From assembly GCA_025355545.1 (NCBI GenBank), contig JANXZN010000020.1, positions 1-32,396 on the forward strand: a stretch of 32,396 bases of DNA, in the 5' to 3' direction. The DNA comes from Rhizobacter sp. GTDB taxonomy: Bacteria > Pseudomonadota > Gammaproteobacteria > Burkholderiales > Burkholderiaceae_C. Shown piece by piece: positions 2,537 through 4,763 of this stretch. The translations under genes were made by a program, and so were the position numbers. The number at the start of each line of letters is the position of its first letter. Position 1 is the first letter of the stretch. The notes under the pieces were generated by a model. That model made no database searches. It saw only the letters and a list, made by a program, of their open reading frames with translations, and was not told where the DNA came from.

Positions 2537-2858
2537 GCACCCCCCAGGACGCCGCCCCCGAGATGCGGGCGTCGAACGCCTCCTGTAGCCGCAGGTAAGC
2601 CGGGTTTCGAGACTGCACGCGAGCGGCCGACCAGCGTCGGCCGTGTAAGAGCGCGCTACGGTTGAACCCCGAACGCGGCCGCAAATGCGACGAGTTTGGG
2701 CGGTTTGCCCGCGGAACCGGTCGGGCACGCGATCTGCAATCCGGCCCATGTCTCCGACCCGCCCTTCGCCGGATCACCCGGCCTTCCCGACTGCATGCCC
2801 CTGCTCCCTGTTCCCTCAAGCACCCCCGTTCGGGGCTTACGTCACGTTACCTACGAAA

Positions 2859-3067
2859 CACTTGCAGAGAGAGAAGCCTCTCAAGTGCCGGCGCATGACG
2901 CCGATACCGATAACAACCCAACACTGAGCCTGCATCGCAGGCCGGTGGTGGTCAGTGCCTCGCGACCCCCGCGCATCCGCGCCATACCGACTTCAGTCGG
3001 TCCACTCGTATCGCCGCACCGCAGCCCCGTCGATTCACGTCGACGGGATGAACCGACACACGAGTGA
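2859..3067 (+). promoter_or_regulatory. Putative structured 5' leader of the DUF1996 gene with SD-sequestering stem
   Basis: Consecutive self-complementary elements read directly: CACTTG(2859-2864)/CAAGTG(2882-2887); CGGCG/CGCCG(2889-2903); CACTGAGCCTGC-ATC-GCAGGC...TCAGTG(2922-2957); ACCGAC-TTCA-GTCGGT(2986-3001); CCCGTCGA-TTCACG-TCGACGGG(3026-3047); long-range CACTCGT(3003-3009)/ACGAGTG(3060-3066) covering the likely SD GAGTGAG (3062-3068). Confidence 0.45.
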
Positions 3068-3076
3068 GACACCGAC

Positions 3077-4324
3077 ATGATCAATAAGCGCGGCTCCAGG
3101 CTCTCCGCCATTCCAACGACACTCTGCGCCTTGTTCGCAGCCACTCTTTCCGCCTGCGGCGGCGGCGACGCCGGCTCGTCCACGGGCACCGATTCACTGG
3201 CGATGGGCCTGACCGACTCCTCCCCGCTCGCGCAGCTCCAGGCGGCCGGCGGCAACGGGCGAGGCAAGGGCAAGGGAGTCGATCTCACGCCCCCTGCACC
3301 TGCACCTGCACCTGCACCTGCACCTGCACCTGCACCTGCACCTGCGCCTGTCACTGCTCCTGCTCCCGCTCCTGCTCCCAGCAGCGCGACATCGCTGATG
3401 CCTTTCATTGACGCCACCAAGATCCCGACCGGATTCGCGGGCGCGAGCACGTTCAACGTAACGTCCACTACGGAGATCGCGCCCGCCGCTGACGGCGCAT
3501 TTCGGACGGTCTGCACGCTGGCGAAGATGGCTTACGACGATCCGATCGTCTATCCTGGCCAGGGTGGCATATCGCACCTCCACGCCTTCTTCGGCAACAC
3601 GGGCACGGACGCCAGTTCAACGACCGATTCGCTGCGGAACACTGGCAACTCGACCTGCCGCGGTGGCATCGCGAACCGCTCGGCCTACTGGGTGCCGGCA
3701 ATGATCGACACCAAAGCCGGAACGCCGCTCCTGCCCGACAACAACGGCGTGTACTACAAGGCAGGATTCGACATCCCTGCGTCGCAGATACAACCCATTC
3801 CCGCAGGCCTTCGCATGATTGCGGGCGATCCCACAGCGAGCGCGTCGCGCCCGGCCCCCGTCAGCATGCGGTTTAAATGCATCGGGGGGCCGAACAACGA
3901 GAACGACAAGTACGGACCGACCATCCCGAACTGCGACGTGGGTGCGCAGGTCTGGAGCGAAGTGTTCTTCCCGCAATGCTGGGATGGCGTAAATCTCGAT
4001 TCACCCGATCACAAGAGTCACATGAGTTACGTGGTGCAGGATCAAACTGCGCCGTTCGCCAAGCACTGCCCTTCTACCCATCCGGTGCCCATTCCCGCAA
4101 TCACGTTCAATGTGACCTACACGGTGACCGAACTGAACGCCCCACTGCGCTGGAGACTGTCCTCCGACAACTATGACCCTGCGCAACCTGGAGGCCACTC
4201 ATCGCACGGCGATTGGTTCAACGGCTGGGACCCGAGCATCAGCAACGCGTGGGCGAAGAACTGTGTTCAGAATGCAAAGGATTGCCACAGCCACTTGGTC
4301 GGTGACGGGCGGATGATGTTCTGA
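3077..4324 (+). CDS. DUF1996-like lipoprotein with Pro-Ala repeat linker
   Basis: N-terminus MINKRGSRLSAIPTTLCALFAATLSACGGG carries lipobox LSAC; (PA)n linker; globular part with GGISHLHAFFGNTG, YWVPAMID, SPDHKSHMSYV, NYDPAQPGGHSSHGDWFNGWDP and CHSHLVGDGR resembles the DUF1996 family. Confidence 0.8.
   Translation: MINKRGSRLSAIPTTLCALFAATLSACGGGDAGSSTGTDSLAMGLTDSSPLAQLQAAGGNGRGKGKGVDLTPPAPAPAPAPAPAPAPAPAPVTAPAPAPAPSSATSLMPFIDATKIPTGFAGASTFNVTSTTEIAPAADGAFRTVCTLAKMAYDDPIVYPGQGGISHLHAFFGNTGTDASSTTDSLRNTGNSTCRGGIANRSAYWVPAMIDTKAGTPLLPDNNGVYYKAGFDIPASQIQPIPAGLRMIAGDPTASASRPAPVSMRFKCIGGPNNENDKYGPTIPNCDVGAQVWSEVFFPQCWDGVNLDSPDHKSHMSYVVQDQTAPFAKHCPSTHPVPIPAITFNVTYTVTELNAPLRWRLSSDNYDPAQPGGHSSHGDWFNGWDPSISNAWAKNCVQNAKDCHSHLVGDGRMMF
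3293..3340 (+). repeat. In-frame hexanucleotide tandem repeat (CCTGCA)x8, followed by degenerate copies to about 3376
   Basis: Eight perfect CCTGCA copies counted; in frame with the CDS as Pro-Ala dipeptides; degenerate cctgcg/gctcct/gctccc continue. Confidence 0.95.
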
Positions 4325-4385: not shown

Positions 4386-4763
4386 ATGGCCCGCATGAGA
4401 TTCGTTGCGCTCACACTGCTGTTCTGCACCAACGTCGCGCTGGCGTTCGCGCCCGTGCCTTCTGATCTGGAGGCACAGCAAGCGCACGCACAAGGATCTT
4501 GCGGCAAGCTTGGCCCCGGGACCGGCCTGAAGAACGGGAAGGGCTGGATCGTCTCGATGATGCCCGGAAGACACGAGTTTCGAATGCGAGGCGGTGGCAA
4601 GGTCCTGCTGACCGTGGCAAAAAAGACCGTCATGGACTTTGACATAGGCCGCCCTTACTACATCGTCATAGAAGATGCAGCCCCGGGGGCGATGCTGGAG
4701 TGGAAGATTCCCGGCAGTGACTGGGTACCGGTCTCGAAATACTTCCTCTATCCCCCGCAATAG
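4386..4763 (+). CDS. Small secreted protein of unknown function
   Basis: 125 aa with signal-peptide-like N-terminus MARMRFVALTLLFCTNVALAFA; compact beta-rich-looking remainder; no family recognised; downstream of the DUF1996 gene on the same strand. Confidence 0.65.
   Translation: MARMRFVALTLLFCTNVALAFAPVPSDLEAQQAHAQGSCGKLGPGTGLKNGKGWIVSMMPGRHEFRMRGGGKVLLTVAKKTVMDFDIGRPYYIVIEDAAPGAMLEWKIPGSDWVPVSKYFLYPPQ

Follow-up and report, generated by a model that had tools for sequence, protein, structure and literature searches.

The leader described here resembles several known systems in different respects. PEP-CTERM/exosortase genes have large intergenic regions with a -24/-12 promoter motif and a 17-nt dyad, in an exopolysaccharide setting; in these motif 1 - motif 2 promoters the 17-nt motif is found about 63 +/- 11 nt upstream (mean 62.8), and the distance from promoter to start has a mean of 71 (Haft 2006, PMC1569441). 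RpoN dependence has been shown for pepA in Aquincola (PMC9850573). The epsC and wcaG RNA motifs are structured elements in the 5′ UTRs of genes related to exopolysaccharide; they occur in other phyla and with synthesis genes (PMC2864571). In translational riboswitches, a conserved upstream junction shares a strand with an alternative stem that masks the Shine-Dalgarno (SD) sequence, and only one of the two can form at a time.

We analysed a stretch of 32,396 nt from Rhizobacter sp. (the window; all its features given here are on the forward strand). It codes for a DUF1996 lipoprotein of 415 aa (3077-4324; PF09362, E 1.1e-49; lipobox LSACGGG, read from the sequence), which would be the regulated gene. 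A sigma-54 -24/-12 promoter, GGGCACGCGATCTGCA, is found at 2723-2738, and its GG-N10-GC spacing is exact in three DUF1996 orthologues. It is preceded, with a spacer of 62 nt, by a 17-nt dyad (TGTAAG-N5-GCTACG, 2644-2660), which is common to the three orthologues and is a likely enhancer-binding-protein site. This is the motif 1 - motif 2 arrangement, and the dyad resembles motif 1 in its length, its TGTAA-type ends and its spacing; the large intergenic region and the exopolysaccharide setting are also shared with PEP-CTERM genes. In contrast to these, the gene downstream codes for a lipoprotein that lacks a PEP-CTERM sorting signal, and about 340-350 nt separate promoter and start codon. Because the -24/-12 element predicts a transcription start near 2749, the whole RNA element described below should be part of the transcript, within a predicted 5′ UTR of about 328 nt. 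A start downstream of about 3010, which the first-pass annotation had named as incompatible with its reading of the leader as regulatory RNA, is unlikely given this conserved promoter. Neither a sigma-70 promoter nor an intrinsic terminator was found in the leader. A PrsR-type PEP-CTERM regulator is encoded in the genome of the window (G000:C36:8311-9651, L073; 706.6 bits, cut-off 502.6). In Rhizobacter sp. Root404 the sigma-54 promoter is present but the best PrsR match (350.9) is below the same cut-off, and thus the activator may differ between genomes.

Full-length DUF1996 orthologues are rare. The closest two are from Root404 (L032), where the gene order from rfbA to glycosyltransferases is as in the window, and from a Burkholderiales MAG (L039), where another gene is found directly upstream of the DUF1996 gene. 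The three orthologous leaders are hardly alignable apart from a few conserved blocks, which are the dyad (TGTAAG-N5-GCTACR), the promoter (GGCACG-N5-TGC), GTTACNNACGAAACA, and GCGCCATACCGAYTYCGTCGGTCC. The latter (2979-3003) is a block of 24-25 nt which is almost invariant in the three leaders. A coding explanation for it was ruled out, as a length difference of 1 nt shifts the frame between orthologues. The block GTTACCTACGAAACA (2846-2860) lies between the predicted transcription start and the core; its conservation is limited to the three DUF1996 orthologues and does not extend to the other members of the RNA family. The RNA element is missing from the leaders of paralogous DUF1996 genes in these genomes. 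It is also lacking from two Hydrogenophaga DUF1996 lipoprotein genes (L042, L043), the leaders of which have a CAACTTGTAACA box in common, in both cases at -314 from the assigned start. Inside the DUF1996 gene of the window, a tandem CACCTG-type repeat (3288-3380), probably of variable length, encodes an Ala-Pro stretch. Directly after this gene, a small secreted-looking protein of 125 aa without a Pfam match is encoded (4386-4763), and its gene is kept in Root404 (L032, reverse strand).

The first-pass annotation had described a series of at least five hairpins in front of the start codon. All five (2859-2887, 2889-2903, 2922-2957, 2986-3001, and 3026-3047) are present, each with a perfect outer stem of 5-8 bp, and the long-range pairing of CACTCGT (3003-3009) with ACGAGTG (3060-3066) is a perfect 7-bp match. 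While this region of 218 nt has five non-overlapping perfect hairpins, dinucleotide shuffles have a mean of 1.5, with 6 of 1000 reaching five. The folding energy of 2820-3110 is -110.4 kcal/mol compared to -91.0 +/- 5.2 kcal/mol in dinucleotide shuffles, a gain of 19 kcal/mol (z -3.76) that leaves the leader more stable than all 200 shuffles. This z value is outside the range obtained for 24 other 291-nt stretches of the window (-2.3 to +1.4). The last 120 nt (-120 to +15) are unusually stable in all three DUF1996 leaders (z -2.8, -3.4, and -3.6), while the 5′ half (-245 to -115), with z -3.0 in the window, is unremarkable in the two orthologues (-1.1 and +0.3). It follows that the conserved object is the 3′ domain (about 2958-3076) and that the upstream hairpins are probably incidental. 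The array as a single regulatory unit had to be given up, its first three hairpins not being conserved in the orthologues.

The conserved RNA core (2958-3017) is a three-way junction of stems P0, P1 and P2. P2 (ACCGAC-UUCA-GUCGGU, 2986-3001) is one of the five hairpins. P0, formed by GCGA (2962-2965) and UCGU (3006-3009), and the P1 hairpin (GCGC-AUCC-GCGC, 2971-2982) had not been named in the first-pass annotation, and neither had an alternative pairing between GTCGGT (2996-3001) of P2 and ACCGAC (3071-3076), which adjoins the ATG.

A covariance model built from the three 3′ domains (R1) was searched against 400 genomes of the family and returned the two orthologues and four further sites, one of them at a DUF1996 gene and three at other genes. 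Two further searches were performed with a compact 58-nt model without coding sequence (R2). After removal of chance matches, the RNA family consists of 16 members, found in 14 genomes that represent at least eight genera; the core of the window scores 65.9 bits with R2 and 60.4 bits with R3. All 16 members precede an ORF that carries a lipobox-like ACGG signal, and in all of them the distance from the end of P2 to the start codon, as chosen by eye, is 68-123 nt. As R2 contains no coding sequence, this placement before lipoprotein genes is independent evidence. Acceptance of the four weakest members (G200, G302b, G151, and G140; 28-30 bits with R2) also leaned on placement. The R2 matches of at least 40 bits are all members and are never found in coding sequence, while discarded matches have at most 29.5 bits. 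Weak matches such as G240, G080b, G082, G148, and G088, mostly within coding sequence, were attributed to chance.

The proteins encoded downstream are of fn3 type (six), DUF1996 (four), right-handed beta-helix (two), heparinase II/III (two) and bacterial Ig (one), with one unassigned. Apart from G200, the members (15 of 16) are found in an exopolysaccharide-type neighbourhood, most genes being identified by sequence inspection only. The neighbouring genes code for glycosyltransferases, GalE, ManC, RfbA, UDP-glucose dehydrogenase, an exosortase-associated DUF3485 protein, and exosortase-type ATPases or flippase-like proteins. In several genomes a gene for a beta-helix or similar secreted protein follows the lipoprotein gene that is led by the element (L129, 4878-6656; L130, 7764-9371; L131, reverse strand), which suggests a conserved pair. 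Other members, too, are preceded by similar sigma-54 sites (Fisher chi-square 87.6 on 32 df). The element is rare and occurs, with stricter filters, in about 10 of 226 family genomes. No second copy in the own genome and no mobile repeat were found, exact-pattern searches returned only orthologues and a few sites without the palindrome, and plasmid records contained no similar DNA. A scan against Rfam 15 had no match reaching the gathering threshold in the window, in the leader (E up to 5) or in 14 member loci. The first-pass annotation had recognised no known riboswitch core.

In the alignment of the 16 members (A4), P0 reads GCGA/UCGC, P1 reads RCGY/RCGY in G-C and A-U versions, and P2 reads RCCGAC/GUCGGY, with a linker that is mostly CAU or CAC. 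Paired cells amount to 96.8% for the core, to 90.6% for P0, where three pairs are changed on both sides, and to 100% for P2. With 6 pairs changed on both sides, the core exceeds the shuffles (2.0), all 500 of which also have a lower covariation score. The same three-way-junction fold is returned by RNAalifold. With a tree-preserving null that keeps the substitution number (own script), the outer pair of P1, the hairpin with a compensatory change from G-C to A-U, is the top-scoring one among all column pairs (p 1.1e-4, with E 0.0016 over 14 proposed pairs and 0.17 over all column pairs) and that of P2 is borderline (E 0.07), these values being based on 16 sequences only, with many invariant core pairs and with an alignment fitted to the structure. 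A first alignment of three sequences had been uninformative. Compensatory changes in homologues, for which the first-pass annotation had called, are thus seen in P1 and P2, and the covariation of the core is real but modest.

The core is followed by the P4 hairpin (3026-3047), which has a counterpart of variable sequence in nearly all members. Further downstream, ACGAGUG (3060-3066) is the 3′ strand of P3. It overlaps the SD-like GAGUGAG and is complementary over 7 bp to CACUCGU (3003-3009), forming a duplex that exceeds those in shuffles (p 0.0005). Because the strand 3006-3009 is common to both, P0 and P3 are mutually exclusive in the window. The clearest cases are G130 and G302a: their P0 5′ strand, GAGCGA, recurs within the SD region (GGAGCGA), which gives UCGCUC two possible partners. 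Stems of 6-7 bp before the start are also found in G365 (CUCGCUC/GAGCGAG), G229 (UCACUCG/CGAGUGA), G080 (GCUCGC/GCGAGC), and G005 (UUCAAUC/GAUUGAA). A stem of 6 bp or more that masks the SD is present in 9 of 16 members, compared to 2.0 expected (0 of 2000 shuffles), so that a long-range stem over the SD, as originally proposed, is supported by the family in aggregate. However, it is weak or missing in several members (MAG338R, Root404b, G200, G151, and G140), including one close orthologue, and self-pairing of P3 is not stronger than cross-pairing between members (p 0.31). In the window and in Root404 only, the start region is also masked by the pairing of GUCGGU with the ACCGAC before the ATG, which extends P3 and competes with P2. 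The default model fold of the window is the masked state, which is favoured over the core by about 7 kcal/mol. When the core is imposed, the SD is not released in most model folds; in the window this opens the AUG (0.63 to 0.16), but the SD re-pairs. The exclusion of P0 and P3 suggests a translational switch, and translational control by the leader is likely.

Taken together, we consider it likely that lipoprotein genes are equipped here with a cis-acting structured RNA leader, transcribed from a sigma-54 promoter, with P0-P1-P2 as sensor and P3 as platform. The view that the region is a cis-regulatory structured RNA was upheld for its 3′ half, with a conserved core, compensatory changes, occurrence before unrelated genes, a promoter and no Rfam match, but not for the 5′ hairpins. 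Transcription from the sigma-54 promoter would provide a 5′ UTR which folds into the compact sensor, followed by the expression platform near the start codon. With P0 closed, its 3′ strand would be unavailable to P3 and the start region would be exposed. With P0 open, the same strand (CUCGU in the window, UCGCUC in others) would pair with the SD region and translation would be repressed. What is observed is a conserved core that has compensatory changes and keeps a fixed position in front of lipoprotein genes, and P3 has support in aggregate. That control is translational, that the switch turns in this direction, and that the junction is bound by a ligand or protein, we infer.

Part of this evidence can also be read differently. 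It is possible that an RNA-binding protein recognises P1 and P2 in tandem and acts on translation or on the stability of the mRNA, with neither a small ligand nor a P0/P3 exchange. This agrees with two small hairpins having strongly conserved stems and variable loops, and with the absence of P3 from several members, but the junction nucleotides and P0 are conserved as well, and the best members have one strand common to P0 and P3. If the palindromes were instead transcription-factor sites downstream of the promoter, P2 being nearly perfect and having few sequence changes, their half-site spacing would not be expected to vary by 1 nt in P2 and by more in P1. The P2 loop has either 3 or 4 nt and every one-sided change in P2 is a G-U wobble, which speaks for an RNA rather than a DNA operator; compensatory changes in P1, the fixed distance to the start codon and a core position about 180-300 nt downstream of sigma-54 sites, where such sites are visible, further argue against this unlikely alternative.

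That the SD stem melts with temperature, the conserved core being incidental, is very improbable. The predicted minimum-energy fold does place the SD within a stem, but a thermometer would have the masking stem as its conserved feature, without a conserved upstream sensor, and here the P0-P1-P2 core upstream of this stem is best conserved, P3 being variable or absent. Even less credit is given to functionless chance structure or residual leader similarity. Stems form easily in DNA with 66% G+C, and the 5′ hairpins are unconserved. However, chance would have to account for a near-invariant block in leaders otherwise barely alignable, for members with compensatory changes in different genera before unrelated proteins, and for high-scoring matches that always avoid coding sequence.

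Within our preferred reading of a sensor and platform leader, a new riboswitch class is proposed tentatively, and with slightly more doubt than the protein-bound leader. Its three-way junction would be an aptamer of ~50 nt for a small molecule linked to exopolysaccharide metabolism or to biofilm signalling, and would turn on the translation of diverse surface lipoproteins by withholding a strand from the SD. A conserved structured domain in the 5′ UTR is present in the form of the core, with 16 members and compensatory changes. The strand shared by aptamer and platform (overlap 3006-3009 in the window) is clear in G130 and G302a and missing in several members. As in translational riboswitches, a conserved upstream junction is found and, in part of the members, a shared strand and an alternative SD-masking stem; unlike in these, the core matches no Rfam model, P3 is not in every member, and the ligand is only putative. 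The epsC and wcaG motifs differ in that the genes here are those of secreted lipoproteins, and the element matches no Rfam family.

In our reading, the element is a cis-regulatory RNA motif, not described so far, that belongs to lipoproteins of exopolysaccharide loci in Burkholderiaceae. Its structure and placement are well supported, and its newness is judged against Rfam only. If this is right, surface lipoproteins as different as DUF1996, fn3, beta-helix and heparinase-like proteins would be joined in a single post-transcriptional regulon that adds to their sigma-54 control. The alignment, the model and a mutational test are ready for finding the signal, and would provide a handle on these proteins and their role in the matrix.
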